A DNA stretch of 64,000 nucleotides from Thuidium tamariscinum (Eukaryota; Streptophyta; Bryopsida; Hypnales; Thuidiaceae), in NCBI GenBank assembly GCA_947034885.2, contig OX344755.2, positions 4,776,501 to 4,840,500 of the forward strand, in the 5' to 3' direction. The position numbers were made by a program, and so were the translations under genes. Below are positions 22,815-56,050 of this stretch, piece after piece (position 1 is the first letter of the stretch; each line of letters begins with the position of its first letter). The notes beneath the pieces were generated by a model, which was not told the DNA's origin, ran no database searches, and was given only the letters and a program-made list of their open reading frames with translations.

Positions 22815-22835
22815 CAGGGTTGTTCTGCCGGACAT
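22815..22835 (+). repeat. Left terminal inverted repeat of the giant hAT
   Basis: CAGGGTTGTTCTG matches the right end exactly, followed by CCG and GACAT. Just inside is CGCGACGTCACG, a subterminal word shared with the right end of the smaller hAT-like insertion (CGTCACGTC at 5881-5889). Confidence 0.95.
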
Positions 22836-22875
22836 CGCGACGTCACGAAACGTCCAGTAGACCCTCCGCGACGTC

Positions 22876-25800
22876 TGTCGTAGCACAGGAAAGCACAATT
22901 CCTTCTCTAAGGCTTTAGAATGCACTAAATTAGCCTTAAAGTGACTCGTGTATCGTTCCCAAGAGATTTGGTCGAAAGTTGACGAAAGACCGGAATACGT
23001 TAGTGGTTATCACAACAAAACCCAAGCAAAAGACTGATCCGGTCTTGGTCTCCAACGTTCCTAAGATTTCCTTGGACCTGATTACCAGATCAATCCTTTA
23101 TCCTTCCAAACTAAGTCTATCTATCTATACCTGTATGTTCACCACCTTGATGCTTACGCTCACTAGATATGGGACTAAAGACCGGATACTAGTAGCTGGT
23201 CCAATCCCTAGTATAGTAACCAAGTGTAAGTTTAACCTCGATAACAAGAGGGATCTGCTTGTTTGGGCGTTTAGGAAGGAAGCTTACTCCTACCCTTCAA
23301 GTTTTAAAGTGTCAGAAGTTCCACTTATGAGTAAAAAGAAACTACTACTACAAACAGACCGGAATACCTCACAACTGGACCGGGACTAATCCGACCCAGC
23401 AGGTCACGCAAGCACTCCTGCCTAATCCTAACAAAGACTACAACGACGGAAGAACCAGTTAGTCTAATCCCTGGTAGAATAAGGGCGGTAGCTTATGCAA
23501 GAGAATTGAATTTCCTCACTTAGTCCTTCTTTCTTCTACAGAGACCGGATCACCATTCAGTTGGCATTTGGCCGGACGCTCCCGATCTCAAACCCAGACT
23601 CTACAAGTGTCTATCTCTATCAAATACTCCCTAGACCTGTTTCAGAAAGCACTGTGGGATCCTGCACAAATTCCCTATCAAAACCGAATTCACTTTAAGT
23701 CCAGAGACCGGATAAACTGACCATCCGGGCACACACTTATCCACACAAGGTTGCAATCCTAACCATCACCATAAGACTTTGACAAGGTCCCATGCACACA
23801 ATCCACTTCAGAGTGAATCAGAAAGGTTCTGACTTGTATTTGCAACACAAAAACTTGTGAAAGTAAGATAACATAATGCGCGCCCGGATTCAATTACGAA
23901 CCGGGTTTAAATACTAAACTGCAAGAAAACCTAAAAGTGCAAATGGAATCAACACCAACCGCCAAGAATGCCACCTCACATTCCTCTACAACTTGGGTAG
24001 GTTGACTTCCACAAAACTACAAAAATACCAACAAAATAGGATCACAGATCCTACATATCTGGATCCGGTCTAAGTTCAAAAGTTCCTAACCTAAATATAA
24101 CTTGGTTTAGCCGCCTTCCTATCTACCTGTAATTAATGCCCCCTATTTCCTCGCCTTCTTGAGAGGCGACGCACCTTTCCGGGCTGGCTGCTTCTTCGGA
24201 GATCGGTACATCTTGATGGGCTTGGGTTTCGGTTTGGTCTTACCCCGCGCCCTGGCCCTGGTCTTCGTGGTCTCTGCCAATGCCTGGTCCGCATCTGAGT
24301 ACTATTCCGACTCATCACCGGAGTCGGTCTCTTCCTCCGAGTCCTCATCTTCCTCATCTGACTCCTCTTCCTCTTCATCCCGGGCCTTCCGCTTCACCTT
24401 GGATGTCTCCGCGGTCTTCTTCTTGAATCCGGTGATGGGCGGGTGGTGCACTATCTTGCTTTGCGGGGTCTGCTCCCCCACTCTCTCGGCAGTCCGGGCT
24501 GGTCCCTGGCTTGGTGACCCGGATCCAGATCCGGTCTTCAGTATAGAGCGGACCTGCACCGTTGCCTTCGCTTCCCCTCCGGTCTTTGGTTGTGTGATGA
24601 CCGTGGGTGATGACTTGCTTGGAGAATCATCCAACAAGGTGATGAACTTGGTCTTCTCCCTTGGTGGTGTAGTTCCCCGGATTATCTCCCTCAACACAAT
24701 CGGCTCGGGTTCCGGCTCCTTGGTCTTCTCGGGTTGAGAAACCCTGGGCTCTTCAATCCGGGCCGGTGGGACAGATTCCTCCTCCACTGCGTCGGTCCTG
24801 GTTCCCTCTTCCTTCGCCGGTTCAGATATGCCGGCTTCTACCTCGACAGTTGCTAGTGGTGGCTGATCCTTCGGTTGCTCCTTCTCCATCTTTGTCTCTT
24901 CCGGTCCTGAGACCGGAGCAGAACTAGCTTGGACCTCCGTGACTACTGACCGCCACTTCTCCAGCGCTGCCTCCATTTTCTTGTTGTAGGCCACCAGAGC
25001 TGTAAGCATCTGAGGACCCACCATCTTGCCTGCTTCCAAGACCTTCCTGTCGAAAAGCATGGCTTTGTTGACGACTTCACCCGGATGCGTGATGAACTCT
25101 CGGATTTCTCCGAGTGTGTTCTGGGCCTGTGTGGTGAGGCGTCTCTCTTCATCCAGCTCCTCCTGAGTGTGATGGAGCTCCCTCCTCAGGGCTGAGACCT
25201 GATTTGTTAGCCGGAGTACCTCCTCTCTGTCCCGACTATCATGAGCCTCCTGAATCAATTCTCCCAACACCTCCATGATCTTGGAGGGGGGAATAGAGCC
25301 TAAGGCTTGGCTTATGGCCCGCAATAACCCTCTCTCCTCTAGGTGGTACTTTCTGAAATCTTCCAGGTCTCGCAGGATCCTTAGCAAGGGATCCTATTCC
25401 CAGACCGGATCTAACCTCTGGGCTTCCCCGGCTACTACAGGGGTTTCTAGAGGTGGATCCTCTCTTCCTACCTCTGGAACCTCCTCTACTTCTTGTGTGC
25501 CTCCTTGATGCCCCTCCTGACTCTCATCCTCGGAGTCCTCCTCATCTTGGTCATTTTCAGCTTCCGGGTCTGCAATCTCATACTCTATCAATGCAGCCCC
25601 TACCTCGTAAGCTTCCATCTCCTTCTCTCTCAAGAGGTCTAACGAATGATACAGATGAAACAGGAATGGTGAAATGGGAGAGGGTTTAGATTTCCCAATT
25701 CCTTTCACCATTCGGTCCATCCGGTCCCTCATAACTAACCCCAAATCTATCTTCCTGTCTCCCGACAGTGCACCAAAGACAGTGTTGGCCACGGTGACCG

Positions 25801-26789
25801 TAATCCTACTAGGTCTATCCGGGTTCAAGATCGCCATCATGAACCGCAGTAGCCTCTTGTGTCTAGCAGACACACACTCTGCTACTGTAAAGCCGTCCTT
25901 CGGGTTGGTGGGCCTGCGGAACTTCCCTTGGTGGAATTTGTCCGTCCGGGTGCCCGTCGCATCTCCTCCTTGCTCGAAGGCGTACACCTTGCGCCACATC
26001 GCTGCACTCCACTCCTTTGGCAGCGCCCGGACCGTCCCTTTCCACTCGTTGGTCTGGCCGGCCAGTAGCTCCTCCACCATCGCCTCATCCTTCAGGTTCC
26101 AGGGGTGAGCCATGAACCCCTCGCAGCCCATCTGCCTGAGGTCTTCCTCCAGCTCCCTCTTGTCTTGTGCGTCAGTTGGCACGACCGGATTCACATTCCG
26201 GAAGGCTAGAATCCTTCCTTCCTGCACCTCTTCTGCCATCTCTCACTTGACGCCTACACAATCTAGGCGCGGTCCAACTTAACTAAACCTCCCGCGCTCA
26301 AGAACCTGTCAGCTAGCGTAGTGCTATTCGCTCAACTATGTACCAGACCGGATTGACAGTTTATCTATCCCTTCTCTCTGTCTGTAGACCGAATACTCTA
26401 TCTCTGGCCGGAAACCCTTTCTCGAACTGCGTGCAAGAAAGTGGCAGGACCTGACCCTGCTTCCCTGGTCTTATACTTTTTCCCCCGGCATTAATTACTG
26501 ACCGTTAGGTTTAAACCAGTCTGGTCACGTGGGAGAGATCCCGACGATCTCTAGACTCGGTAGCCACTCATTACCTATCCGGTCTCGGTCGCTAGGTGGG
26601 CGGAATCCGGGATTTCATACGCTGTCCCTTAACGTAGTTTCTGGTTTACGGTCTAGGGTTTTCCGGTTTCCGGTCTTGGTCCCAATTATGTGTAGAAACT
26701 AAGAAAACAAAAAAAAAATGGGGATTGAATAGATCCCTCTTCCCGTATTTTGCTTAAGAACCTGCTTAGGTGAATTCTAGGTTGCCACA
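22876..26789 (-). mobile_element. TG..CA element nested 61 bp inside the left end of the giant hAT
   Basis: Left end TGTCGTAGCACAGG; right end, complemented, TGTGGCAACC. Both match the ends of 7922-11541 (TGTCGCAACACAGG and TGTGGCAAG). ACGTC precedes (22871-22875) and follows (26790-26794) as the 5-bp duplication. It runs on the minus strand: leader 26789-26240, ORF remnant 26239-24143, tail 24142-22876. No LTRs are visible. It is younger than the hAT it interrupts and separates the left terminal repeat from its GC array. Confidence 0.85.
24143..26239 (-). pseudogene. Gag-like / plant-transposon-domain-like protein with two in-frame TAG codons
   Basis: A single frame of about 698 codons broken by TAG at 25394-25396 (after LDPVWE) and 24302-24304 (after GDESE). 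Both are one transition from CAG. The N-terminal 215 residues align with 8593-10275: RLLRFMMAIL, ANTVFGALSGDRKID, PISPFLFHLYHSLDLL. A coiled coil follows (TNQVSALRRELHHTQEELDE), then a Pro/Glu-rich region and an acidic patch (EEEEESDEE). The basic tail (KKQPARKG) ends at 24143. It is longer than its intact relative (560 residues). The fragment at 485-808 matches the end of this version better. Confidence 0.75.
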
Positions 26790-26879
26790 ACGTCCATAAA
26801 AGTCAAATTTACCTTTGACTTTTTAAAAATTACCACGTGGAAAATAATGCCACCTGGATGCCCGCGTGGCAAAAATTAG

Positions 26880-27257
26880 GGCGCATGCGGGTAGGGCGAC
26901 CGCGGGTAGGGCGACTGCAGATAGGGCGAACGCGGGTCGGGGCGACTGCGGCTAGGGCGACCACGGGTAGCGGTTTAGCGTGGGGGCGACCGCGCTAGGG
27001 GCGACTGCAGGATTAGGCGACCGCGGCTCACCCGAAGTCGCCCCATGCGCAGCCGCGGTCGCCCTTCAAGGACCCGTGGTCGCCCCCCCACATCCGCGGT
27101 TGCCCCATCCGCACCCGAGGTCGCCCTACTCGGACCCGCGGTTGCCCCCTTCCAATACGCGGTCGCCCTAAGCCGCAGTCGCCTCTAGCCGCAGTCGCCC
27201 TGGCGCCACCCGTGGTCGCCTCTGATTCGCACGCGCCCTGGATTTTACCCGTACTCG
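26880..27257. promoter_or_regulatory. GC-rich motif array A, bidirectional, between the left hAT end and the RING cargo gene
   Basis: About 25 copies of the 14-bp motif ACCCGCGGTCGCCC or its complement, with linkers of a few bases. From 26880 to about 27030 the motif reads GGGCGACCGCGGGT, pointing to the left transposon end. From about 27035 it flips to CCGCGGTCGCCC, pointing to the gene at 27425. A TATA box follows directly at 27262. The flip makes it both a terminus-type and a promoter-type array. Confidence 0.85.
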
Positions 27258-27261
27258 CGCC

Positions 27262-27267
27262 TATAAA
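27262..27267 (+). promoter_or_regulatory. TATA box of the RING cargo gene
   Basis: TATAAA within CCTATAAAGCC, just after the last motif of array A and 163 bp before the ATG at 27425. The same layout occurs at 44208 and 50162. Confidence 0.7.
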
Positions 27268-27424
27268 GCCGTGCTCGCACAAGGCATTGGTACCTTAATT
27301 CTCCATCGAGGCTCTTCGTCTTGCATCCTTCATTGGCTGCATGCATTAACTTCGGGTTGAATAATTACTTCTTTCTTCATCCATCCACGTTTCCTTATTG
27401 GTGTTTTGAACACCAACTTATCTC

Positions 27425-29560
27425 ATGGCTACAGAGCAGACCCCGGAGGTGCCCCCCGTTGTTCCACGCAATACACGAATCACTTATGCTGCGAGGAAGT
27501 CTATACTAAACAAAAATCGGAAGCGCAGAGGCAATACTCATCGCAAGCGATTACACGTGCTGAACAATCCTGATCACCCCGCATTTAAAGGCTGGAGCGA
27601 GGAGGAGGAGCCTTGGTCAATTCAAATGTGCGAAGACTACATTGAATGGTGTCACATTGGGAAATTGTTTCCGGCATGGCGCCATCATCACAATCGGCAC
27701 ACAAACAAGGCGAACTTGAAATATTGTGAAAATCCAGCTTTTGTTCAAAGGTGCATCGAAATTTGGCAAGTCCTCTACAACACTCCTTTTGTAGAAAGGA
27801 ATGAAGTCACGCTTTCCATTGCTCGAGGAGCGTATGCTGAGGTGGTTCTAAAAAAAGAAGTGGATTGGTCCACCATCAAGGAAAGTATGTATGTTTCACC
27901 TCCAGAAATTGGATCAATACCAAGAGGAGTCTTGAAGTTTCCGGAGGGTGGACTTGGACCAATTCGAAAAGATCCTTTCGATAAGAGTGTCATCGAAGTT
28001 ATCACATCAGAATCTGAAGAAGATAGCGATTCCGATGGCACACATGCTCCAAGGCCAATACGGATTGCTCCACAAATTGCCCCTGTACCAGTAATTCAAG
28101 ATCCAACTGTCAGAGGAGCTTCATCATCACGAGGACGGAAACCTAGACGCCCCTCTAAGGTTCCATGCTCGCCGAATCAAATCGGACTTGGATCGACCTC
28201 AGCAACAGTTCGCAGTCCATCATTACCACTGCAAAATGCGACCGATGTCTTCGACTTCGAACCAAATGATGAAACGCCTGTGGATGCGAGCGTTCCTGTT
28301 CTTTTAGCTCAAGGGGATTCAACCACGGCTCTCAATAAGGCTCTTGACCTCTTGAAGACCAAAGACACGACAATTGCTTCACTCCAATCTGATGTGAAGA
28401 AATTGCAATCAAATTTGGACCAGAAGAATGCTCTCATTTTAGAACAAGCCAAAGAACTTCAACGCCTTCGACAAAAACAACATGAGACGATTACTTTGTC
28501 AGATATGGACGAAGGTTTCATTGAACATGATCCTCATCATTTGGAGAGGGTCGTGGAAGACCTCACTAGCGGTCTCATTGAGTGTACTCCTCCTGGCAAG
28601 CGTGTCAAACGTTCTTCAGTATTGCCAGCTACGATTTTGCCTACCGTCACGGAAGATGCTATCATGGGGGCAGATGGTGTTCACAAGACTCAAGATTCAC
28701 TTTCATTTCCATCACTTCCACTCCCAGTACCGGTACCATCTCCGAAGAAACTAGGCCTTCGAGAGGAAAACAAGATGCTTCATACACGATTGAATGAGTT
28801 GGCAGCAACATACTATCACTGGAAGGTTGCGTGCATTCTCTCCGTGGACAGATCACAGCAAGTTGCAAAGGAGTTGGACAAAATTTCAAAGAACTTCGTC
28901 GCAAATGCCCCTAAACGTGAGAATGGACTCACATCGTGGGCATTTATGGAGGACATGTTTCCTGAGAATATGCCTATGTTGAACACCCCTGGAAATGAAG
29001 GAATCAATTGGACACAGCTTGGTTGGGACCACAAAAACCAGATGTCGTGCCACGTAGATGAGAAACAACGACAACTTTTGTGGCCAAAGCCAGCAACTTT
29101 TGTTTTGGACCATACAAAATGTCCTATATGTCAAGAATCCTTCGGCCCTGAAGGAGGATGGGCACTTGGATCATGCGTGCACGTATACCATCTTCAATGT
29201 CTAATTACACAATGCCTCATACGGAGACGTTGTGTTATTTGTTCAGCCCCATTCCATGATCGTTTATACGCCTTGTTCAACTTGATGACATATATGCCGC
29301 CCTCTTGGGAACACACAGGTGACACAACTCCGGAGACCAGATTATGGGGCCGAGACCTGATTTGGAGTTGGCGACAAGGCCAACATGATCAAGAAAAGGG
29401 CACAGATAGTTCTCAATTGAATTGGGAAACTGACCCAGAAGAGATCGTGCAAGTTGCATCCAAGCTCATGGGAAACGGTCCACAGAACGAGGGACGAAGG
29501 GCATTTTTTTTCCAATGCCTTGGTGGATTTTTCGATAAACAATCACAAAGCTTCATGTAG
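27425..29560 (+). CDS. Cargo protein with shared N-terminal domain and C-terminal RING-H2 finger
   Basis: 711 residues from the first ATG after a TATA box. A basic N-terminus (about 24-45) precedes the family domain at about 55-153, with WCHIGKLFPAWRHHHNRHT, NKANL and VDWSTIKE. It shares this domain with the genes at 31787-33295 and 44405-45802. A coiled coil follows at about 300-350. The RING-H2 finger is complete: Cys566, Cys569, Cys584, His586, His589, Cys592, Cys603, Cys606. It is probably an E3 ubiquitin ligase whose N-terminal domain chooses the target. After the TAG at 29558 the same frame stays open for 113 more codons, with coding-like composition, to a stop at 29897. The TAG may therefore be premature, leaving the finger intact but trimming a C-terminal tail. 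The N-terminal domain is not one I recognise. Confidence 0.75.
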   Translation: MATEQTPEVPPVVPRNTRITYAARKSILNKNRKRRGNTHRKRLHVLNNPDHPAFKGWSEEEEPWSIQMCEDYIEWCHIGKLFPAWRHHHNRHTNKANLKYCENPAFVQRCIEIWQVLYNTPFVERNEVTLSIARGAYAEVVLKKEVDWSTIKESMYVSPPEIGSIPRGVLKFPEGGLGPIRKDPFDKSVIEVITSESEEDSDSDGTHAPRPIRIAPQIAPVPVIQDPTVRGASSSRGRKPRRPSKVPCSPNQIGLGSTSATVRSPSLPLQNATDVFDFEPNDETPVDASVPVLLAQGDSTTALNKALDLLKTKDTTIASLQSDVKKLQSNLDQKNALILEQAKELQRLRQKQHETITLSDMDEGFIEHDPHHLERVVEDLTSGLIECTPPGKRVKRSSVLPATILPTVTEDAIMGADGVHKTQDSLSFPSLPLPVPVPSPKKLGLREENKMLHTRLNELAATYYHWKVACILSVDRSQQVAKELDKISKNFVANAPKRENGLTSWAFMEDMFPENMPMLNTPGNEGINWTQLGWDHKNQMSCHVDEKQRQLLWPKPATFVLDHTKCPICQESFGPEGGWALGSCVHVYHLQCLITQCLIRRRCVICSAPFHDRLYALFNLMTYMPPSWEHTGDTTPETRLWGRDLIWSWRQGQHDQEKGTDSSQLNWETDPEEIVQVASKLMGNGPQNEGRRAFFFQCLGGFFDKQSQSFM

Positions 29561-31786: not shown

Positions 31787-33295
31787 TCAACGTGTGGTAT
31801 TACAAAAATCTTCTTCTTTGGGTTCTGGACCTATCTCTTCAAGGTCTTTACGAGTAACACCTCGAGCTGTAGTACGCACTTTCCACTTCATCCAAGCGTG
31901 CTCAAATTTAATTTGTGAATCCAATTGTCCCACCTCTTTCATTGATTCCACAAATTTCTTCTCATGTAGCTTTACAAGCTTCCGCAATACTGATACTTCT
32001 TCTTCTGTGGTACCGTATTGAGGAGCCATAGCGAGAAAATCTAGCTCTGAGGCACATTGTAGAGCAGCAACGTAGTTGGTCTTTTCTTCCTCATCTATTT
32101 ACCGATTGAGGACTCTTACGTCATTGTGCACCCGCCAACGTTCGCGTTCAAGAATTCTCAATTTTTGTTGAAGTATGGCATACACGTCCATTGGGTGTCC
32201 ACGCTTCTCTTGTTTCTTCTTGTAATAAAGATCTCTACTTTTTTTCATAGAAGCTAGGCGCTCATCATTTTCAGAGATGGCCCTATGTATGGCCTTCATC
32301 TCTTCCTTCAACATAGGGATGGTGTGTGCAGTTGTGCCAGCACTAAGTTCCAATGCTCTTATTTGGCGCAATTCTAACACATGTCTTTTCACCAAATCCA
32401 AGGCCTCAATTGCTGAATCTAATTGAGCTTGGATAATGTCCACACTCTCTTCTCCATCACCTACTCTCCCATCTTGGAGGCCTTCAACAATTTTTTGGCC
32501 TACTTCCATATGCTCATGACCCTCCCTGACTTGTTTTGGGATGTTTGATGGAGTCCCTCGGTCCTCCACCTTTCTTTTGCCTTTCTTGGCAAGTTCCAAC
32601 TCCAAGGCCTTTTTTTGGTCGCCCATGCCAACATCCTCATCGTCGCTCTGGAAATTATACCCATCGTATTCATGGGTGTGTTCATCCGAGCTAGAATTAG
32701 GCGACCATACTACGTCTTCATCGAAAACAGCTAACTTCCCAGGCTTCACTTGTGCCAATGACTTCTTCACATCAATTGTTTCACCTTCTGCCACAATAGA
32801 TGCTTCTTCCACATGGTCTCCAACTAGAAGCTCCTTCAATGTTGACCAGTCCACTTTTTTCTTCAATATGTTTTCAGCATACACCATTTGGACCAGGAAG
32901 AAACAGAAATTGTCGTTTCTATATGGCTTGGTCTCCCCATACAACCTCATCCATACTTCCAAGCATCTGAGTGTGAAGTCTTCATCTTTGCAATATGCAA
33001 GATTGGCCTTGTTTTGCCCCAAATGAATCTTGTGGCGCCAATGTGGAAACAACTTGTTGATGTGGCACCAATCAACATATTTGTTGACTGTTTTGTAAGT
33101 CCAAGGCTCAGGTTCAGTCCTCCAACCCAAAAAAGCCTTGATTTTTGGATGTTGAAGGAGAGGCACTCGCTTCTTGTGACATTTCCCCTTCCTTTTACGG
33201 TCCTTGTCTCGAGCTGCCCTCTTCTGTGGTGAAGTCAATGGTTTGCCTGTACTAGGCTGGGCTGCTCCAGTCTCATCTTCTATAACTATTGCTAC
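31787..33295 (-). pseudogene. Cargo paralogue 2, family domain plus coiled coil, one in-frame TAA
   Basis: The exon opens at a probable acceptor (CTCAG|GTAGC at 33295), so a short upstream coding exon is implied but not located. The N-terminal part has KRKGKCHKKR, then the family domain: WCHINKLFPHWRHKIHLGQ, NKANL and VDWSTLKE. The rest is acidic and coiled coil with many Leu/Arg/Glu heptads. TAA at 32099-32101 (after VLNR) splits the frame. The same frame resumes as IDEEEKTNY and runs to 31787. CAA to TAA is the simplest origin. Without the stop the product (about 500 residues) would resemble the 465-residue paralogue at 44405. Like the other cargo genes it has a GC array upstream. Function unknown. 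Confidence 0.65.
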
Positions 33296-33599
33296 CTGAG
33301 TACTATGCTACTCTATGGTTAACTTAACTAATTGTTCTACGACTAAAATGTTCTTTTCTAAAAACCTAAATCCCTAGAACAAGCAAACTACACATTTACA
33401 AACCTATATGCATTTACAAAATGTTTTTTTTATAAAAAAAAAAAGGCACATACTCATACATAACAGTATGCCAAGCATGTGCAGAGCTCGAGCGCAAAAA
33501 TGGCAAATCCCGACGTGAAGTATGGAATCCCTTGCTCACGGGCACGCAATCAGCCACATCTAAGTGGGTGAAGGTCAATGCGCAAAGCAAGGGAGGTGG

Positions 33600-33785
33600 A
33601 CTACGGGTCGGGGCGACTGCTTAAGTACCCGCAGTCGCCTAGGGCGCGTGCGCAAGGGCGACTGCGCATTCAAGGCGACCGCGAGTCCAGGAAGGTGCGC
33701 GTTCGTGGGGTGCGACCGCGGGTGCGCGACCACGGGTGCGCGTTTGCGGGATGGGCGACCGCGCCTTCGGGGTTGGGGCTTCTAG
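33600..33785. promoter_or_regulatory. GC-rich motif array B, upstream of cargo paralogue 2
   Basis: About ten motif copies read GGGCGACTGCG or GCGACCGCGGGT on the plus strand, so ACCCGCGGTCGCCC points leftwards to the minus-strand gene. A TATA-like TACTTAAG (minus strand, 33620-33627) lies inside its gene-proximal edge. The 33510-33640 segment aligns with 39960-40070 upstream of the kinase (shared CAGCCAC, GGGTGAAGG/GACAATGCGCAA, GACTGCTTAAGTACCC), so the two promoters share origin. Confidence 0.8.
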
Positions 33786-38211: not shown

Positions 38212-39867
38212 CTACAGGGGGGAATCGTGCAATACAAATGTTGGAGGCTTCATATACCATGGAGGCCCCAGGACCAAATTCACCACCTCTGTACATGTTG
38301 GTCTCTCCTTCAGATCTTCATTTTTGAGTTGGCCCACCTTCATAGCAAAATACCTACATGCATCCATCATTGTGAATGTCTCTTTGTCAAAAGGATACAT
38401 ATCCCCAATCTTCATAGCTTCCACCAGCTTTCCAATAGAATACGAGTCTGACTGCTTTGTATATTTATGCCTCAATTGCATAATTGGTATGCTTGTATCC
38501 GAATTAGGTGGTCCAAATGTATAAAACAACTCTGGAGCCACCCACCATCGTCCCTCTTGTTGCTTCCGTGTCTCTTCCTTGGTAGGATATCCATAATGCG
38601 ATGGGGCTTTTTCGTTTACACGGCTTGTAATTCCGAAATCACAAATCCCAATGTTGATTATTTCATTTGAATAATCAGGATAGTGCAACAATACATTTCT
38701 CGGAGATAAATCGTTGTGTAGCACTGATGATTGGTGCATGAGGTGAGTCACATACACCAAGGTCCATGCCAACTTTGCCTTATGCCTTCGAAAAAGGCTA
38801 ACTTCCTTTTGTTTCTCTTCAGGAAGTTCTCTGATTCGATGCACTTCGTGCCATTCAGTAGTTCGTGACACCAGCTTATCCACATTCAGTAAGTCACCCA
38901 AATGACCTCCATTCCACCACAATGTATACGCTTCCATGGTAATTGAGTTTAAGGCAAAAAACTTAATTAAGCCTGCATGATTTAAAGGGCATGCCAAGGC
39001 CTCTACGGACCGCTCCACCCGTTGATCACGCAAGTCCTTCGTTTTTGGCATTTTCCCCGCAAGAGCAATATTTGGTGGAATGGTATCTAGACCTGTTATT
39101 CGAACCTTTCGCACCTTTCCGTGGCCACCTTCACGAGAAAAACCACCGAGGGCCTCAACCTTTGCTGTGGGTGGAATCCATATGATACTCACTCCACCAT
39201 CTCTTGCAAATGCAGCCTTCACAGCGTCATTTTTCCACTTGAAACCCCTCAATCCAAACTTTGACAATCTCTTGGACGCAGTATGCCACCACTCCATCTT
39301 CGCACGGAATTCCTTTGCCTCTTCATCTTCCACTCGTCCTGTGGTTGGTGCACGGAACTCTATCATCAATTTCTTGGTATTAAAAGTTACTGCCTGAATA
39401 GTATCAGTCATCCAATCACAAAATCTGGAATTGTACGTTAAGTCCACGTCTTTGAAGTCCTCTGATTCATAACACTTGCTTAAGATTCGGGCCTCCAAAT
39501 CCCCCGTCAGCTTCTCCGTGCCTGTTCCAGCATCCCTCAAATAGTTTGCCTCCAAAAATTGTACACTTTTGCCAGCGTACCATTGAAGGCACACCTCGTA
39601 TGCATACTTCGTATAACTTGAAGGAGGATATGTTGGATCCTTATCATGAGCAGACCTGGATTTCTTTTTCTTCAATCGAGCTTCATTCCCTGTTGTTTCG
39701 CTTGTAAATATAGGCTCTAGAAAGTGTTGTGGATCATCCAAATCCCAAAGGGATTTTCGCCTCAAGGTACTGGTACCCTCTGTGGGATTAGGCATTTCTG
39801 AGAATATTGGATGAGTATCCAAAACACCTTTGTGCCTCACGTCGCCATCTTCTATTGGGTTGGACAT
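38212..39867 (-). CDS. Eukaryotic-type protein kinase carried by the hAT
   Basis: 551 residues, intact single ORF from ATG at 39867. An N-terminal region of about 230 residues of unknown role precedes the kinase fold. Readable motifs: glycine-rich loop around 241-252 (GGFSREGGHGKV), Lys272, a helix C Glu near 285-289, hinge AYTLWWNGGHLGDLL, catalytic loop HNDLSPRN (Asp386, Asn391), DFG at 410-412, APE at 444-446, Asp474 (SDSYS) and a final Arg in ERPT. HND replaces HRD and SPR replaces the usual Lys-x-x, as seen in some divergent kinases, so activity is plausible but substrate choice is unknown. It has its own GC array and TATA-like box, and its promoter resembles that of cargo paralogue 2. 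It may be a host gene captured by the transposon, for example to alter host chromatin or cell-cycle state; that role is inference. Confidence 0.85.
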   Translation of the reverse strand: MSNPIEDGDVRHKGVLDTHPIFSEMPNPTEGTSTLRRKSLWDLDDPQHFLEPIFTSETTGNEARLKKKKSRSAHDKDPTYPPSSYTKYAYEVCLQWYAGKSVQFLEANYLRDAGTGTEKLTGDLEARILSKCYESEDFKDVDLTYNSRFCDWMTDTIQAVTFNTKKLMIEFRAPTTGRVEDEEAKEFRAKMEWWHTASKRLSKFGLRGFKWKNDAVKAAFARDGGVSIIWIPPTAKVEALGGFSREGGHGKVRKVRITGLDTIPPNIALAGKMPKTKDLRDQRVERSVEALACPLNHAGLIKFFALNSITMEAYTLWWNGGHLGDLLNVDKLVSRTTEWHEVHRIRELPEEKQKEVSLFRRHKAKLAWTLVYVTHLMHQSSVLHNDLSPRNVLLHYPDYSNEIINIGICDFGITSRVNEKAPSHYGYPTKEETRKQQEGRWWVAPELFYTFGPPNSDTSIPIMQLRHKYTKQSDSYSIGKLVEAMKIGDMYPFDKETFTMMDACRYFAMKVGQLKNEDLKERPTCTEVVNLVLGPPWYMKPPTFVLHDSPL

Positions 39868-40029: not shown

Positions 40030-40240
40030 ATGCGGTCCCGGAGACTGCTTAAGTACCCGAAGTCGCCCCAGGCGCGTGCGGATCCAGATGCGACCGCGGG
40101 TAGGCGACCTCGGGTGCGTAGGGCGACCGCGGGTAGGGCGACCGCGACTGGGGGCGACCGCGACTGGAGGGCGACCGCGGCTGGGGGTGACCGCGGCTGG
40201 GGGGCGACCGCGGATGGGGGGCGACCGTGTTTGAGGAGCT
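40030..40240. promoter_or_regulatory. GC-rich motif array C, upstream of the kinase
   Basis: About twelve copies of GCGACCGCGGGTAGG or GGGGCGACCGCGACTGG on the plus strand, so the motif points left to the minus-strand kinase. A TATA-like TACTTAAG lies at 40048-40055 on the minus strand, 181 bp before the ATG. The long Arg/Gly/Ala reading frame across it is a by-product. Confidence 0.85.
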
Positions 40241-40584
40241 CCCTTACTCTGAAGAAAGAGCTTCCTCCACGCAAGGCCGGGAAGGAGGTGTTTATATCGC
40301 AAGGCAGTATCAAGGGAGTTGAGAATGAGAATGTGGTGGAAGTTTTGCTCGGGAAGGCAATTGTGCTGTGCACTGCCAAGTGTCGAGATAATCCCGTATC
40401 GTCGGAGCTGCAAGTGAAAAGTGCTCATCATGTTTTCAATCGAGTTTATGATGTCTACAACAAAAAACTTCTGAAGATGGATAAAATCGAGAAATGTCTC
40501 GTTGAAACTCGAACTTCAACCCTGCTGATAAAGCATTGCGGGACACTGGATGAAACCTATTTAGTAAATAGAATATTCTCTTAA
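40241..40584 (+). other. Open frame of unknown status between arrays C and C'
   Basis: About 115 codons with balanced composition (VENENVVEVLLGKAIVLCTA, HHVFNRVYDVYNKK) are continuous with array C on the left and have no ATG of their own at a sensible place. They could be a captured gene fragment or one exon. I recognise no family, and there is no paralogue elsewhere in the window. Confidence 0.3.
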
Positions 40585-40586
40585 GG

Positions 40587-40800
40587 GGCGACCGAGCCTG
40601 GAATGGTAGTGTGTTCTGACGCAACTTGTGGCACTGGCGATCGCCCTTGAGGCGCGGTCGCCCCTTACCCGCGGTCGCCTTACTTTCAGGGTTTGCAAAT
40701 TTTGTTAAGCTTCTTCATGCAGAGGGCTTGCCCCTTTGGTTCAAAATAAATAAATAAATTGTGAAGCGTGGTCGCTCTAAAGGCGGTCGCTTTACATGAC
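40587..40800. promoter_or_regulatory. Orphan GC-rich motif array C'
   Basis: It contains GGGCGACCGAGCC, GCGATCGCCC, GCGCGGTCGCCCC, ACCCGCGGTCGCC and GGCGGTCGC. Most copies read CCGCGGTCGCC on the plus strand, pointing right, but no gene follows for 3.6 kb. It may be the relic promoter of a deleted cargo gene, separated by the inverted-repeat arm at 40840. Confidence 0.6.
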
Positions 40801-43934: not shown

Positions 43935-44245
43935 GTGGTCGCCCAAGTCAGAAGGCGGGAAATTCAGAAATAAATGACCTCGTAAAAGGACCCGCGGTCG
44001 CCCTACCCGCGGTCGCCACTACTGTGAAGGACCCGCGGTCGCCTTTCCCGTGGTCGCCCTTCGCGCACTCGCCCAGGCGCGGTCGCCCAGACCGCAAAAC
44101 AGGTCCTTCAAAGGACCCGCGGTCGCCCTCGTGCGGTCGCCCTTCCCGCACTCGCCCCACCCGCAGTCGCCCTCGCACGGAACGCACGCGCCCCAGGCGA
44201 CATCGGGTTTATAAGTGGTCGCCCCATCCGCATTCGCCCACTTGC
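43935..44245. promoter_or_regulatory. GC-rich motif array D, upstream of cargo paralogue 3
   Basis: About fifteen copies of GACCCGCGGTCGCCC or CCCGCAGTCGCCC, all in the same direction, pointing right to the gene at 44405. A TATA box (TTTATAAG, 44208-44215) lies among the last motifs. Downstream leader wording (CACTTG, CACCCGC, GTGGCTGACTGCGTGTCC) is the complement of the leaders at 33510-33560 and 39960-40010. Confidence 0.85.
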
Positions 44246-44404: not shown

Positions 44405-45802
44405 ATGGATGCCACCCGAAGGAACCGTGAAGCCAAAGGCAAGATGCAAAAAAGACAACGACACGTCCTTGTGGACTCTAATGTCGTGGCTCATGGAGGT
44501 TGGGAGAGGATCGAAGGCTTTTGGACCGCGACCACTTGTAGGGCATTTGTACAATGGTGCCACATCGATAAGCTTTTCCCCTATCATCGACACAAAATCC
44601 ACTTGAAGTCAAACATGGCAAATCTTCATGCTTGCACTCACGATGGATTTGTACAAAGATGTATCGAAGTATATCGATACTTGTACAAGACACGAAGTGT
44701 GCCTCGGAATGAAATTCCCTTGTTTCTGTGTGAGATGGTGTACGCGGAAGTTATTCTTCGACGAAGGGTGGATTGGAGCACCATTAAGGGAGCAAAGCTT
44801 GTCCAAAAACCGTCAACCAAGGACATTCCTAGGGCGGGTCCCTCCCAAAACCCACGTGAAGGTTTAGGGAAAAAGATTTTCATCAAGAATGAAGTTCCGA
44901 ACAATGAGTTCGTGTGGTCGGATCACGAAAGTAGTGAAGATGAGTTGATGGATGTTGGACTGCCACATGTGGGTGAGACATTGGCTAATTTGGAGCCTTT
45001 GGAGGAGGGGGAAGTGGAGGCGGGCCCCACGTTGACATTGCCTTCATTGGAAGGGATGCCAAGAATTGAAGGATCTGTTGAAGCTGCAAGTGTGGAGGCC
45101 AACGAAGATATTCCATTGAACGACTTTTATAAAGTTCAATTGAAGAGTGTGCTTGAAGAGTTGGATAGAGCAAATGAAGAGAAAAGGACTTTGGAGGAAG
45201 GGGCAGTGACTGATACTTCTGATGATGTTCCAACCCTTCAAGCCCTCATTGAATCGGGACGAATTCAGTTGTCCAAGCAACATGAGCAAATCTTGAACTT
45301 GGAAGCATTCTATCTGAACTTCTCCGTTTCAGGGGGTGAAGGTTCTAGTTCTTCAACTAACAAATTTGTAGAAGAACGATTGGCTAAACTCAAGGAAGAT
45401 TGTCACATCGAAGCTGACTGCTTGGAAAATGAAAAAAGATCTCTTGAAGGTGCACAATCAAAATTACGTGACCTTCAGAAAATGAAGGACAAAGCCCCTC
45501 TTGATCGTATTGTTGATATACAAGATTCTGAAGATCATGAGAGGCAACATGAGACATTGAAGTTGGAAGCAGAGGACCTAAAGAAGAAGTTAGCCCATGC
45601 TCTCGCATTGGAAAGTGATGTGGCCGGGGAAGTGGAGAAGAAGAAGATGAATTTGCTCAATGCACTGAATTTGAAGAAAGAGTACATGAAAAATAAATGG
45701 TGGGATTTTCCTCTTCAATCCAATTTGGATAGTGCCTACAAGGAGGCGAAGAAAGACTTGGAAGCTAAGAAAAGGCTAAAGACAGATGAACAAAGCAAGT
45801 AG
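44405..45802 (+). CDS. Cargo paralogue 3, family domain plus long coiled coil, intact
   Basis: 465 residues starting MDATRRNREAKGKMQKRQR. The ATG at 44405 is chosen over an earlier in-frame non-ATG codon because it aligns with the basic N-termini of the paralogues and follows the TATA box by about 190 bp. The family domain spans residues 45-128, with WCHIDKLFPYHRHKIHL, SNMANL, FVQRCIEVYRYLY and VDWSTIK. An acidic linker (SDHESSEDELMD) and a coiled coil (about 235-460) follow. There is no RING finger. The conserved Cys/His residues (WCH, RH..H, RC) could bind a metal, but no known zinc signature fits. It probably dimerises with itself or its RING paralogue. Function unknown. Confidence 0.75.
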   Translation: MDATRRNREAKGKMQKRQRHVLVDSNVVAHGGWERIEGFWTATTCRAFVQWCHIDKLFPYHRHKIHLKSNMANLHACTHDGFVQRCIEVYRYLYKTRSVPRNEIPLFLCEMVYAEVILRRRVDWSTIKGAKLVQKPSTKDIPRAGPSQNPREGLGKKIFIKNEVPNNEFVWSDHESSEDELMDVGLPHVGETLANLEPLEEGEVEAGPTLTLPSLEGMPRIEGSVEAASVEANEDIPLNDFYKVQLKSVLEELDRANEEKRTLEEGAVTDTSDDVPTLQALIESGRIQLSKQHEQILNLEAFYLNFSVSGGEGSSSSTNKFVEERLAKLKEDCHIEADCLENEKRSLEGAQSKLRDLQKMKDKAPLDRIVDIQDSEDHERQHETLKLEAEDLKKKLAHALALESDVAGEVEKKKMNLLNALNLKKEYMKNKWWDFPLQSNLDSAYKEAKKDLEAKKRLKTDEQSK

Positions 45803-48598: not shown

Positions 48599-49290
48599 TG
48601 TAAATGTCCTTCTATTTCCACATTCTTGGATAAGTGCCATATTTTTTCAATTTTGTCTTCCCATTTTTCTTCAACTAATCTAAGTCTAATATTGAAATCT
48701 CAAAAATATTACATTCCCTTCTTTTTTTTAAAGTACTAGGGGGGGGGGGGGGTATCCATTGAATTTTAATAGAAACTCTATCTCCATAATGTTTTGGTAG
48801 TAGTTCAAGTATACATTTTGGGATAAGTATCATTTTTTAAAATTCTGTCTTCCCATTTTTTTTTCAACTGATCGAAGTCTAATTTTGAGATCTCAAAAAT
48901 ATTACATTTCCTTTTTTTTTAAAGTACTAGGGGGGGATCCATTGAATTTTAATAGAAACTCTATCTCCATAATGTTTTGGTAGAAGTTCAAGTTTACATT
49001 TTTGAATAAGTGTCATTTTTTAAAATTTTGTCTTCCCATTTTTTTCCCCAATAATCTAAGTCTAATATTGAGATCTCAAAAATATTACATTTCCTTTTTT
49101 TTTAAAGTACTAGGGGGGGGGGGGGGTTCCATTGAATTTTAATAGAAACTCTATCTCCATAATGTTTTGGTAGAAGTTCAAGTATACATTTTTGAATAAC
49201 TGTCATTTTTTAAAATTTTGTCTTCCCATTTTTTTTCCCACTAATCTAAGTCTAATACTGAGATCCCAAAAATATTACATTCCCTTTGTT
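48599..49290. repeat. Tandem repeat, unit about 187 bp, with oligo-G tracts
   Basis: Three and a half units contain TCTTCCCATTTTT, GAGATCTCAAAAATATTACAT, AAAGTACTAGGGGGG and TAGAAACTCTATCTCC. The G tract varies from 7 to about 14 between copies, typical of slippage. It holds no gene. Confidence 0.85.
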
Positions 49291-49744
49291 TCATATTGAG
49301 ATTTGCTTCACCCTTACAAGAAATTGCCATTGAAAACTTTGAAGATGACACATTGTATCTTCTTAGTCCTTTAGGGATTAAGCATTTGAAATATCATGAA
49401 ATTGAGGGTTGTCCTCCTCCATAATTGAGCTCTCATAGAACTCAACATTCCTAAGTAAAAGTATGATATTTTTTATTGAGGTTTGAAGGTTTATGATTTC
49501 TTGGAGAAAGAGCCAATAGGGCTTGGTGGTGAAGGGGTTGGAAATACCTTTAAAAGCTTCTATGTGCATGAAATGGTAAATCACTTTGGAGTAACTATTG
49601 CTACATAGTAATTTAGATGCTGCTTTTAATGAGAATGAAGTGGGATATAATGTGGAACTAGGAGGAATCTCCGAATCTCTCAAATAATACCTGTTACAGC
49701 TAGGTTAATAACTGTCCACCTTGCTCAGGCCAGCTGGTCCTGTA

Positions 49745-50155
49745 AGGCGACCGCGTGTACAGCAACCGCGCTTTCCAAAAATTGAAAACTTGCAAAGGTG
49801 CGACCGCGGGTCAGGGGCGACCTCGGGTGCCAGAACTGCCGCCCGCCACCTCCATGCGCGGTCGCCCGTCCGGGGAGTGCGATCGCGGGTCAGGGGCGAC
49901 CTCCGGTGCCAGAACCTAAACCGCCACCTCCATGCGTGGTCGCCCGTCCGGGGAGTGCGACCGCGCTTGGGGCGATCGCGGGTCATTTTTTGCAGTTCCT
50001 CACCCTGTCCCGCGGTCGCCCCACTACCCGCGGTCGCCCTCGTACGTGCGGTCGTCCTTGCAGGCGCCGTCGCCCCCATTACCCGCGGTCGCCCATTACC
50101 CGCGGTCGCCCTGTTCACCCGAAGTCGCCCTATACCCGCAGTCGCCCCTGTGGCG
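49745..50155. promoter_or_regulatory. GC-rich motif array E, upstream of the hAT transposase
   Basis: More than twenty motif copies. The left half includes two units of about 105 bp, each with GCGACCGCGGGTCAGGGGCG, then CACCTCCATGCG and GGTCGCCCGTCCGGGGAGTG. From about 50005 all copies read CCCGCGGTCGCCC and point to the transposase. A TATA box follows at 50162. The left half is mixed in direction. Confidence 0.85.
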
Positions 50156-50167: not shown

Positions 50168-50394
50168 GCTGCAGCTGAAACACTGAGGGATTACCTTGCT
50201 TCAGTGATTAGACTCTAGCCTTGAACCTTCGAAAGAGGCTTCTTGCGGATGTTTTGGTTCATTGGAGGGCAAGAGCCTTGCTTTGAGGGGGTTTAAAAAC
50301 CCTCTCACAGTAGGTAGCATTGTCATAACTTTTTCCTTGTTACTCGATTCTTGGATCGATTTTTTGGGGGTGAAACTCATTGTGGATTCACACC

Positions 50395-53300
50395 ATGGTT
50401 GTCCCAGGTGGTGGTCAAGGTCGGCCCGATACGCGTAGGGCTACAAAAGATTGGGACCCTTGGCTTATACCATGCGTTCCAAATGATCATTCACCCTATC
50501 CTCGGAAATGCTTGTTTTGCGGGTGGAGCAAAGTCTTTGTGCGGAAAAGGGCATTTAGTCACTTTGGATATGGTGGCTCGGCAACAGCAGAACGTTGTCC
50601 AAAAATCCCTAGAAGTGCACGTGAAAAGTTTATGACTTGCGGCGGAAACGTTCCAAAAGCCATGAGCTTTGAAGAATTGTTTGAAACACCATTTGTGGGC
50701 AATGAGGCCATTGGTGCGGCACAATCCCTCATTCAAGAGGTAGAGGGTGGTGAGGTGGGTGGTTCTTCAAATCCAACGGGTCCAACCGGCCCGACAAACC
50801 CTACCCCAGATTCAGTGGATTCTACTCCAAGTACGGTTGACAGAACAGGAAGCCACCCTGTGGTTTCTCGTCAAAGAAGTATGGATGAAGCATTACAAAT
50901 AGGCTTGAGACAAAAGTTGGATGCGACGTGGGCTTCATTTTTTTATGAAGCCAATATTGCATTCAACGTCACGCGACACCCTGCATTTATAAATGCAGTG
51001 AAGGAAACTGCAGCAGCTGGAATTTTATATCGTCCACCAGCATTCAACGCGTTGCGTACCAAGATGATTGATGTGAAGAAAGAAGTTGTCCAAAAAATGG
51101 TCAATGACCGGACAAAGAACTCTATTGCGCAATATGGAGCAACTATTTGTTCAGATGGATGGTCAGATACCAATAGGCGGCCGTTGATGAATGTGATGCT
51201 CGTTTGTCCAGCAGGGGATGTGTTTTTGGGATCAGAGGACAGTACGGGACCGAAGAAGGACATTGCCTACACGACAGCTTTAATGTCGAAGTACATAGAC
51301 AAGGCCGGTCCTTCAAATATTGTGCAATTGTGTACAGACAATGCTTCAGTAATGATTGGAACTATGTCATGTTTGTTACTGAAATATCCCCACATGTACA
51401 AACAAGGGTGTGCGGCTCACATCTTGGATTTGCTTTTGGAAGATTGGGGAAAGTCTCAAACGATGAAGGATTTGGTAAGCGAGTGTAGGACAATGGTGAA
51501 GCATATTAGGAAATACCATTTCACTATGGCTTTGTTTCGGAAACATTCTCCAAACAAAATGCTTAGGCTGCCTACTTTGACATGGTTTGCCACCAATTTC
51601 TTTATGGTAGACCGCCTGCTCGATTGCAAACAAGCTTTGCAAACCGTGGTTGCAGATGATGCTTACATGACCTTCGAGTTCAGTTTGCAGAATCGGACTA
51701 ATGGAGGTACCATTAGGCGCAAAGCAATGGATGTTCGGCTAAACATTCATTCTGAAAGGTTTTGGTCAAAATGCAAGAATTTCGTGTTTATGATAGAGCC
51801 AGTACTCATTGCTCTACGACACTTTGATGGCAAAAAACCAGCAATGCCAAAAGCTTGGTTGATAATGTTCGAGTTGAAGAAACACGTGTATGCTCTCAGG
51901 GATCCTCCATTTCTTTTAGACCCTGTGGTTGCAACGCGTTACGAGAAGAAATTTGAAGCTCGTTGGAAGTTAATGCGAACGGACCTCCACTATGCAAGAG
52001 CACTCTTGAATCCGTTTTTGGCAGGAGTAGAAGAAATTCAAAACGATGGGGCAGCCAAAGCAGCTTTGAATCGAGTCATACGAAAACTAGCTCCATCATT
52101 AGGAGTTTCAGTGGTCGTAGCAATGCAAGAGCTTGTCAAATTTGAGGAGAAGACAGGGCCATTTGATCCCCGAGAAGAGGTTCTCGACATCACAGAGACC
52201 AATTTAGAACCTCATCAATGGTGGAATCATGTAGGCGGCGATGCTCTTCCGAAGATTGCAAAGAGAATTCTAGGGTTGACTTGTTCAGCATCTTCATGTG
52301 AACGAAACTGGAGCATGTATTCATTCGTGCACAGTAAAACGCGAAATCGTTTGACCACAAAGAAGGCTCAAGATTTGGTGTACATTTATGCTAACTGCCA
52401 CTTGGAACGTCAAAAGTGTGGGTACAATGCTGCTCAATTTTATGAAAGGGTCCTCGTGGATGGAGACACTGATGAAGAGAGGGACGAGCCTATGCCTTCA
52501 GGATCGGAGGACGAGGGTTATTTTGATTTTATCGAAGATAATTTAGTCCGAAGAGAAGAAGAAGATCTCTTGCGCGATTACAATGAATGGGCAGATATGG
52601 TCCCACCTCCACCAAGTCCACCGCCATATCAATATGGAAACACATTTGCAAGTGGCAATGATGCGGAAGGTGTTGCTGAGGAAGAACTTTTTCGTTCTCC
52701 AGAGCGGAACCCTGATGATGCGTGGGTCGGAAATTGGGGCACAGTTTCACCACGAACTGCGGCAAGAACACCTTCTGACAACAACGAACAAGCAGATAAT
52801 CAAATGCCTGCCTCAGATGTTCAAGAAACATCTCCAGTACCAACATTTCCAGTACCAACACGTATTCCTTCAAGCAGAGCAATGAATATTGGAAACATTG
52901 CACCAATCAATGCGGGAATTGAAGCAGAAGAAGAGGTGGATCACATTGAAGAGGTTGTAGAAGAAGTAACTCCTATTTCGGTAGCAATGAATTCACCGAC
53001 CATACAAACAACGGAGGCAGCTGAGTATGATTCAGATGCGCCACTGAATACCATCCTCAACCGTAGTCGGAACGTTTCCTTGACTCGAGGTGGACATACA
53101 GGGCAGACTACAGTCAGAAGGTCAGTCACAACTCCTTCTATAAGGGGCCGTGTGCCCAGAGGGGAAGATACAAGCCAAGGTAGAGTCAGAAGATCGGCCC
53201 CTAGTTCATCGACAAGGACGCCTTTAGATGGAGGTCCACTATCCAGCATCAATGAAGAAGTCCCCGAGTCTGCTCCACAAGCCACCCAACCAACTCCAGT

Positions 53301-53778
53301 GTCTGAGCCAAGAGAAATATCGTTGGAAGAACGACTACGCAACAACAACAATAGAGACAGAAGTAAAAAAAGGCGCATTAGAAGAGTAGATGAAAGGACA
53401 CACAAACATCCGAAGCGCGCAAATCAAATTGTGGCACCTTGTAGGCTTGGGGCAGGGTGCTCCACGCAAGCGGTCCAGCAATCAAGCCAATCAATAGCGG
53501 TTCAAGCAGGTCCTGAATCTGTAGTTGATGGAATTATTGATGCAACACGTCCCACAAAACGACTAGTCCAGACTGCGATTCCTGGTGGTCAAGACATAGT
53601 TGTGCGGAATTTGACCTCGGAGGTGGAAAGAGAAATACGACCAGAACCAATAACAAGAGAAGAGGACGAGAATGACAGCTCAAGCCACGATAGCGACACA
53701 GACGCTGGTTACGCATCGCGCGAAGATACGGACCCTGATGCTAACGAAGTGCAGAACGATTCAGATTTTTGTTTGTAA
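50395..53778 (+). CDS. hAT-superfamily transposase with long C-terminal extension, intact
   Basis: 1,127 residues from ATG 50395 in a single exon. A BED-like zinc finger lies near residues 39-68 (CLFC, then His56 and Cys68). A DUF659-type core follows. The hAT catalytic residues are present: Asp254 (CSDGWSD), Asp315 (CTDNAS) and Glu636 (SSCERNWS). The hAT-C dimerisation region continues with KTRNRL and ends near residue 685. Beyond it are about 440 residues of acidic, Ser/Thr/Pro/Arg-rich, probably disordered sequence. Typical plant hAT transposases are about 650-850 residues, so the tail is unusual. It should cut at the CAGGGTTGTTCTG ends and make 8-bp duplications, matching those flanking this element. 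Being uninterrupted, it may be active. The BED finger is the natural candidate to bind the GC motif arrays. Confidence 0.92.
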   Translation: MVVPGGGQGRPDTRRATKDWDPWLIPCVPNDHSPYPRKCLFCGWSKVFVRKRAFSHFGYGGSATAERCPKIPRSAREKFMTCGGNVPKAMSFEELFETPFVGNEAIGAAQSLIQEVEGGEVGGSSNPTGPTGPTNPTPDSVDSTPSTVDRTGSHPVVSRQRSMDEALQIGLRQKLDATWASFFYEANIAFNVTRHPAFINAVKETAAAGILYRPPAFNALRTKMIDVKKEVVQKMVNDRTKNSIAQYGATICSDGWSDTNRRPLMNVMLVCPAGDVFLGSEDSTGPKKDIAYTTALMSKYIDKAGPSNIVQLCTDNASVMIGTMSCLLLKYPHMYKQGCAAHILDLLLEDWGKSQTMKDLVSECRTMVKHIRKYHFTMALFRKHSPNKMLRLPTLTWFATNFFMVDRLLDCKQALQTVVADDAYMTFEFSLQNRTNGGTIRRKAMDVRLNIHSERFWSKCKNFVFMIEPVLIALRHFDGKKPAMPKAWLIMFELKKHVYALRDPPFLLDPVVATRYEKKFEARWKLMRTDLHYARALLNPFLAGVEEIQNDGAAKAALNRVIRKLAPSLGVSVVVAMQELVKFEEKTGPFDPREEVLDITETNLEPHQWWNHVGGDALPKIAKRILGLTCSASSCERNWSMYSFVHSKTRNRLTTKKAQDLVYIYANCHLERQKCGYNAAQFYERVLVDGDTDEERDEPMPSGSEDEGYFDFIEDNLVRREEEDLLRDYNEWADMVPPPPSPPPYQYGNTFASGNDAEGVAEEELFRSPERNPDDAWVGNWGTVSPRTAARTPSDNNEQADNQMPASDVQETSPVPTFPVPTRIPSSRAMNIGNIAPINAGIEAEEEVDHIEEVVEEVTPISVAMNSPTIQTTEAAEYDSDAPLNTILNRSRNVSLTRGGHTGQTTVRRSVTTPSIRGRVPRGEDTSQGRVRRSAPSSSTRTPLDGGPLSSINEEVPESAPQATQPTPVSEPREISLEERLRNNNNRDRSKKRRIRRVDERTHKHPKRANQIVAPCRLGAGCSTQAVQQSSQSIAVQAGPESVVDGIIDATRPTKRLVQTAIPGGQDIVVRNLTSEVEREIRPEPITREEDENDSSSHDSDTDAGYASREDTDPDANEVQNDSDFCL

Positions 53779-55600: not shown

Positions 55601-55604
55601 ACCT

Positions 55605-55870
55605 GCGGTCGCCATCAAAGACAGAGGCGTGGTCGCCCTGCACCCAAGGTCGCCCCTAACCAGAAGTCGCCCTTCTCTTGTACCCAAGGTCGCCCTTCTA
55701 TTGCACCCGCGGTCGCAAAAGAGACGCAGTCGCGCTGGATTTTTAACCCGCGGTCGCGCCTGAGCCCGGTACCCGCGGTCGCCTCTGCACCCGCTGTCGC
55801 CCTGAAAATCGGATGCACGGTCGTCCTTACCAGAGACGCGGTCGCCCCACCCGTAGTCGCCCTGCCTCGC
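55605..55870. promoter_or_regulatory. GC-rich motif array F, right subterminal region of the giant hAT
   Basis: About fourteen copies such as ACCCGCGGTCGC, CCCAAGGTCGCCC and CCCGTAGTCGCCC, all pointing right to the transposon end 180 bp away. No gene follows. Array A mirrors it at the left end. Between array and terminus are CCACGT words (TTTCCACGTCAGCGTGG), with CCACGTGGAAA in the matching position on the left. Confidence 0.85.
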
Positions 55871-56029
55871 TTTCCACGTCAGCGTGGACAGCCTGCCACG
55901 TAGGCAAAAACTTCTTACTTCGCGGTAAAAAAATTAACCCTTGCGCGACGGGACGGGACGGGGTAGCGACAGGTTGTCTTATACGACACGCGACATCGGA
56001 CGTCTAACACGACGCCGAAACCCAAAAAT

Positions 56030-56050
56030 ATGTCTAACAGAACAACCCTG
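56030..56050 (-). repeat. Right terminal inverted repeat of the giant hAT
   Basis: CAGAACAACCCTG is the exact complement of the left 13 bp, and ATGTC just inside pairs with GACAT. Further in are CGTCTAACACGACG and GACGTC-like words comparable with the left subterminal region. Confidence 0.95.

Follow-up and report, generated by a model that had tools for sequence, protein, structure and literature searches.

hAT elements are the textbook minimal DNA transposon, and the locus described here raises the question of whether one of them can move as a single unit together with four further genes. The stretch analysed, referred to as the window, consists of 64,000 nucleotides of Thuidium tamariscinum (assembly GCA_947034885.2, contig OX344755.2, positions 4,776,501 to 4,840,500 of the forward strand), in which the initial annotation placed a 33-kb hAT transposon at 22815 to 56050 whose cargo is a kinase, a RING protein and two further paralogues. 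Comparison with other copies in the genome showed that the element moves as one unit, with the same ends, 8-bp duplications specific to each locus and five colinear genes in the probed copies, and that it was amplified recently (~98% identity between copies). The presence of a multi-gene mobile unit is considered close to certain, and its identification as an autonomous multi-gene hAT DNA transposon of ~29.3 kb is held with high confidence.

Element ends and insertion site

The element begins and ends with a perfect 13-bp inverted repeat, CAGGGTTGTTCTG, as initially annotated. A search on both strands of the 64-kb window showed exact copies only at 22815 (+) and 56050 (-), and an identical 8-bp duplication, ACGTATTG, was read on both sides. 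Such short inverted ends are characteristic of the hAT superfamily. Several small hATs lying side by side were ruled out, as the window has no exact internal end and the nearest resembling sequence has two changes.

Virtual excision of the element with one duplication produced an open exon of 1,389 nt on the minus strand. Its alignment with the paralogue at 1444-2832 was gapless over 459 aa with 75.6% identity, in agreement with the equal length that had been claimed; this paralogue contains a single internal stop. In locus L012 a third paralogue spans the site without this element, aligning at 78% across 544 columns, small gaps included. As read from the sequence, excision restores the frame and length of the exon, which is no proof of a working gene. 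The target gene is present in the window at 1444-7870 and 55915-59982, the right copy being the hAT target, while the third copy in L012 adjoins the high-copy 3.9-kb repeat described below. The gene had no Pfam match and is presumably MULE-like (Mutator-like element).

Copies of the element in the genome

Genome-wide searches covered 363,211,507 bases in 19 contigs. From 914 first-look candidates, at least 41 full-length transposase copies were found among the matches listed, including that of the window, with 95-100% identity; 19 of these 41 had no stops. The 61-bp left end gave 126 first-look candidates and 41 matches listed, a total that counts the left end of the window and has one end in two parts. 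All 29 other copies that were fetched aligned past the transposase open reading frame (ORF) on both sides, through the upstream array and downstream, in a comparison that omitted aligned pieces of less than 200 bases. Departures in the flanks were seen in four of them: L037 and L045 diverged further upstream, and L023 and L047 had a downstream insertion.

Ten of the 29 copies were chosen and probed with small pieces at positions extrapolated from the window. All ten had the right end at the colinear position, eight of them exactly and two with a single change. The kinase, too, lay at its colinear position in all ten; it matched over 800-801 bp at 98.9-99.6% in nine copies, and in L064 it was interrupted and matched over only 187 bp. 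The left end had the exact 13-bp repeat in all nine copies asked. The 8-bp flanks were identical on left and right in 8 of these 9 end pairs, with a sequence that differed per locus (ATTTATTC, GCATAATG, CTCAGAAG, GACAAGGG, GAAATGGT, TGTCCAAT, TCTAAAAC and CCAGTGCG), so that the duplication length of the hAT superfamily is present in the window copy and in eight others. The nine paired copies measured 29,418-29,638 bp and were spread across six contigs. Probes of 100 bases found the RING gene in 7/7 copies, accessory paralogue 1 in the same 7/7 and accessory paralogue 2 in 6/6 of these; overall, 20/20 accessory probes in the seven copies matched the predicted gene at 98-100%. It had been set in advance that a giant hAT would be refuted if no further copy shared both its ends and its cargo. 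The reverse is the case: several complete copies have these ends and all five genes in unchanged order, with 8-bp duplications that differ between them.

The 29 transposase copies differed by 0.8-2.5% from the window copy. The ratio of non-synonymous to synonymous changes (pN/pS) of the transposase was 0.87 for singleton changes and 0.52 for shared changes, with the window copy as reference so that changes private to the window count as shared, and 14 stops were found among singleton changes compared to 2 among shared ones. For a kinase piece of 534 bases in nine of the ten copies (without L064), pN/pS was 0.65 for singleton and 0.30 for shared changes, with few changes overall, and one of the nine pieces (L065) had a stop. 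The pattern in the transposase fits young copies that would be decaying from a constrained source lineage.

Nested insertion and length of the element

The length of 33 kb did not stand, as the span includes a later insertion of 3.9 kb. A genome-wide search with a 201-base query from the left end matched the full left end nowhere but in the window. Another 39 places matched at 99-100% from base ~53-62 onward (40 scored of 702 candidates), which places the start of a high-copy repeat at about this base of the element. The inserted sequence is flanked by a 5-bp duplication, ACGTC, at 22871-22875 and 26790-26794. All six copies of the repeat that were fetched from elsewhere matched over 3.9 kb at 98.95-99.36%, beginning at 22874 or up to 7 bases earlier and ending at 26789-26796, and each was a TG...CA unit with its own 5-bp duplication. 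The 5-bp duplications ended in TC in 7/7 cases. No second long terminal repeat (LTR) was seen in the window, so the insertion looks like a solo LTR carrying an ORF. The ORFs inside it (24302-26242), which we take to be gag-like and which had no significant Pfam match, were ruled out as hAT cargo because they sit within the nested insertion. An ORF outside the hAT (8560-10275) was 43% identical over 181 aa to an ORF of the insertion.

Removal of the nested insertion and one ACGTC leaves a hAT of 29,317 bp, and the element proper is thus ~29.3 kb. The lengths of the nine paired copies leave no space for the insertion. What remains of the initial annotation is a giant multi-gene hAT of smaller size.

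Transposase

The hAT transposase was claimed to be uninterrupted, and its ORF is indeed open from 50395 to 53778. Pfam matches to DUF659 (5.8e-32) and Dimer_Tnp_hAT (2.8e-07), both above cut-off, provide the domain and dimerisation region of the hAT superfamily, and the protein has a C-terminal extension of ~450 aa. A protein search that admits only candidates of 0.55-1.75 times the query length, in which shorter relatives could not appear, gave 54 relatives, 35 of them with 961-1,202 aa and 10 with 630-665 aa. Among 21 aligned transposase proteins D317 and E638 were invariant and D256 was present in at least 90%; these residues are taken by us as the DDE catalytic triad of hAT transposases. 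At the N-terminus, a CxxC from residue 41 followed by an H and a C was read by eye, with no Pfam zinc-finger match. Chains of the hAT transposase Hermes were the only matches in the search against solved structures, each of them weak (E 0.067-0.13).

Upstream of the transposase array, a 183-bp tandem repeat (3.6 copies) was found at 48620-49291. Of the other 29 fetched copies, 25 matched it, their stretches ending in or near the repeat.

Probable accessory genes

The kinase and the RING protein lie between the ends as claimed, and the coordinates of all features are given in Table 1. The protein search for the kinase gave 56 relatives. Residues K273, E290, H385-N386-D387, N392, D411 and A445-P446-E447 were invariant in 22/22 sequences (the window and 21 of the 56 relatives); assuming the catalytic roles that we assign to them, their invariance suggests that the kinase is probably active. 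A search against solved structures with the single kinase sequence returned four MAP-type kinase sequences and one phosphotransferase, and the kinase profile gave no match among solved structures at 1e-8. Downstream of the kinase, a fold-back was present at 37022-37720 with 340-nt arms that are 86% complementary and separated by 19 nt.

The RING protein matched Pfam RING models only under the gathering score, which is exceeded by a distant homologue. The two further paralogues were also borne out, since an N-terminal domain of ~120 aa is common to them and the RING protein. The first in-frame ATG of paralogue 1 falls after this conserved domain and the 5' end of its coordinates is provisional. 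Searching with the three accessory proteins together gave four relatives among the best 7,994 candidates scored. Neither the kinase nor paralogue 2 is a fragment, as a relative of each aligns over 100% of it (P0001 for the kinase, P0111 for paralogue 2). An old inverted repeat of ~1.1 kb and ~77% (40850-41982 and 46171-47584) flanks paralogue 2; a nested element was ruled out here, with no sharp ends or duplication seen. Finally, an Rfam search gave no match at gathering scores.

Tandem arrays

The element has GC-rich tandem arrays with the core GCGGTCGC. Counting both this sequence and its complement, there were 36 occurrences within the element and none in the 30.8 kb of window outside it, compared to an expected mean of 0.11 and a maximum of 2 in a first-order simulation (200 runs). 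Clusters of the core hexamer were located ~200-920 bases upstream of all five genes, the distance for paralogue 1 being measured to the upper end of its ORF, and also within the right end. When the nested insertion is disregarded, the left end mirrors the arrangement of the right end. Single hexamer matches were found in or near genes at 28238, 29610 and 32617-32701, and one was outside the element at 11106.

Upstream of the transposase, 30 copies together had 441 core hexamers in 20.5 kb of array segments and 6 in the remaining 169 kb. The number per copy ranged from 6 to 20, and the remainder was ~98% identical. A further dense GC-rich tandem array, with units of ~20 to 158 bases, was present at 63263-63992.

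Table 1. Features of the hAT element and its insertion site in the window.
Feature	Position	Strand	Remarks
Left target-site duplication ACGTATTG	22807..22814	no strand	8 bp, read in the window
Left terminal inverted repeat CAGGGTTGTTCTG	22815..22827	+	13 bp
Nested solo-LTR-like insertion, TG...CA	22876..26789	no strand	Not part of the hAT
ORFs inside the nested insertion	24302..26242	-	No significant Pfam match
GC-rich tandem arrays, GCGGTCGC core	26880..27219	no strand	Left subterminal, upstream of RING gene
RING-H2-like protein	27425..29560	+	711 aa; N-terminal domain common to two paralogues
Accessory paralogue 1	32099..33307	-	N-terminal domain in common with RING protein
GCGGTCGC array	33675..33763	-	Upstream of accessory paralogue 1
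Protein kinase	38212..39867	-	551 aa; Pkinase 1.2e-11
GCGGTCGC array	40090..40790	-	Upstream of kinase
GCGGTCGC array	43937..44173	+	Upstream of accessory paralogue 2
Accessory paralogue 2	44405..45802	+	465 aa; N-terminal domain in common with RING protein
GCGGTCGC array	49747..50148	+	Upstream of transposase; length varies among copies
hAT transposase	50395..53778	+	1127 aa; open ORF, Pfam match
GCGGTCGC array	55605..55860	no strand	Right subterminal
Right terminal inverted repeat	56038..56050	-	13 bp, perfect match to the left
Right target-site duplication ACGTATTG	56051..56058	no strand	8 bp, read in the window

Linkage in distant genomes

A scan of bacterial and archaeal genomes with the transposase produced three contigs (L001, L002 and L003), which sit in bins named cyanobacterium, Halorubrum and Lachnospiraceae and are probably misbinned eukaryotic transposon DNA. 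L001 (6,291 bases) has the end of a transposase (residues 459-775, 39% identity), followed on the same strand by a RING-protein homologue of 855 aa. The N-terminal domain of this homologue was 29-32% identical and its C-terminal half 30% (E 1e-34), and its RING score was 36.9 against a cut-off of 27.3. L002 and L003 held transposase pieces only. In addition, the kinase relative P0038 and the transposase relative P0083 each have just one assigned ENA contig, 15,563 bases long in both cases; the equal size makes it likely that the two genes share one contig. With one direct and one indirect case, the partnership of transposase and accessory genes appears to predate this family. A transposase with 68% identity, P0057, is listed in NCBI under the name of a protein from a Bacilli metagenome-assembled genome.

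Interpretation

The four genes called cargo in the initial annotation are present in the probed copies, and the word is probably wrong for them because they share the arrays of the element and because a distant genome also has the transposase and a RING gene linked. It is likely that the extra genes are accessory rather than passenger. The transposase would bind the short ends and the subterminal arrays and would cut and paste the whole unit, which the products of the other four genes (kinase, RING protein and both paralogues) may serve. The GCGGTCGC arrays before every gene could act as shared control or transposase-binding sites. A protein of the element would most likely read them and keep the genes on, the shared N-terminal domain being the candidate reader; this proposal is modelled on the VANC proteins, which read the tandem motifs of VANDAL elements. 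A function of the arrays and accessory genes in anti-silencing or co-regulation is suggested tentatively. Likewise, an ancient multi-gene hAT lineage in which the kinase, the RING E3-like protein and the array-reading family form a self-encoded control system is a possibility that we rate below an even chance. If this were true, control through private arrays that diverge between lineages would give self-sufficient elements able to amplify at 30 kb.

A hAT that captured host genes (Pack-type or hitchhiking), which would travel as passengers with no benefit to transposition, is unlikely. All five genes were found wherever they were probed, the same private array precedes each of them in the window copy, the transposase-RING pair also occurs in a distant genome, and the kinase and paralogue 2 are full-length relative to their relatives. 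That DNA transposons capture genes is well known, and the host-type fold of the kinase would suit such an origin, as would the stop in the L065 kinase piece (1 of 9) and the interrupted kinase of L064. A transposon-virus fusion like Teratorn, which is fused with a virus, is very improbable even though the element is large and kinases, which would be viral here with the other genes, are common in large DNA viruses: Pfam showed no viral core gene in the ten window ORFs scanned (seven within the ends), and four IMG/VR scans with the kinase and the transposase, as single proteins and as alignments, gave no relative, records near the genome of the window being possibly excluded. Least probable of all is a composite of a small hAT and separately nested genes, with 33 kb as an accident of locus or assembly. 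The real nested insertion at 22876-26789 and the 1.1-kb inverted repeat around paralogue 2 would speak for it. Barring one assembly error repeated at many loci, it is already refuted by the nine copies from six contigs: they measure 29.4-29.6 kb, which leaves no space for the nested insertion, 8/9 have matching duplications, and their accessory genes are colinear wherever probed.

Several observations weigh against an autonomous hAT with accessory genes of its own. Stops are contained in 22 of the 41 listed transposase copies, and the shared changes in pN/pS include those private to the window copy. The flanks of the ninth end pair (L026) differ (GTTCTATG and ACTGGAAC). Among four extra pairs joined by position alone, one (26,862 bp) agrees at 6/8 bases, another disagrees, and two right ends were absent from the 401-bp stretch fetched. 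The N-terminal domain shared by the accessory proteins had no Pfam match or meaningful PDB relative. Finally, the GC-rich 21-bp array of L001, which then lies after the genes, has a unit other than GCGGTCGC.

Overall, the autonomous multi-gene hAT breaks the one-gene picture of these elements, with five genes kept in order through a recent amplification and a transposase-RING pairing that recurs distantly. The hAT machinery is able to move nearly 30 kb repeatedly in nature. This raises the question of why a transposon needs a kinase and a ubiquitin-ligase-like protein.

Comparison with known systems

No hAT with such genes was found among the matches listed in the open-access literature, as judged from titles and abstract starts, with subscription journals and preprints outside this scope. 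Autonomous hATs are usually a few kb long, about one tenth of this element, and encode only a transposase, and Ac-type elements have subterminal repeats to which those found here can be likened. As in the hAT superfamily (Ac/Ds, Hermes), the element has 8-bp duplications, CAGGG-type short inverted ends and a transposase with DUF659 and a dimerisation region, while its five genes and 29.4-29.6 kb depart from the usual short layout with transposase alone. A survey of plant hATs defines them by their transposase, by duplications of 4-8 bp and by terminal sequences no shorter than 8 bp (PMC6027215). On its sequence features, the element belongs in the hAT superfamily as a new multi-gene variant, because the defining features that were tested are present apart from the zinc finger, for which the CxxC, H and C were read by eye and Pfam gave no match.

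Teratorn is likewise a giant eukaryotic DNA transposon, of 180 kb and piggyBac-like according to an excerpt of PMC10175614, and no viral genes were seen in the element described here. Starship elements of fungi are also very large multi-gene mobile units. They use a tyrosine recombinase with DUF3435 (as given in the available text of PMC12506042), whereas the present element has a DDE hAT transposase and 8-bp duplications, and a Pfam scan of ten ORFs of the window, of which seven lie within the ends, found no DUF3435 tyrosine recombinase. ToxhAT/ToxTA of fungal wheat pathogens is cargo-bearing (14 kb) and was at first called a hAT. The available text of the same source has ToxhAT now placed near Tc1/mariner by its authors, with a TA duplication, 74-bp ends and a non-autonomous nature (PMC12506042), and it is therefore no true hAT precedent.

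The VANDAL elements have a Mutator-like transposase, and only hAT domains were found by Pfam in the window ORFs. As in the element described here, VANDAL/Hiun with VANC has genes beyond the transposase and family-specific short motifs in non-coding tandem arrays, and the accessible text describes no kinase or RING gene in VANDAL, unlike in this element (PMC5735166). The arrays targeted by VANC are gained and lost between copies according to the same text (PMC5735166), which the array-length variation seen here may resemble, as a likeness and not a test. The element would offer a second, independent system for studying tandem arrays in element self-control or silencing escape.

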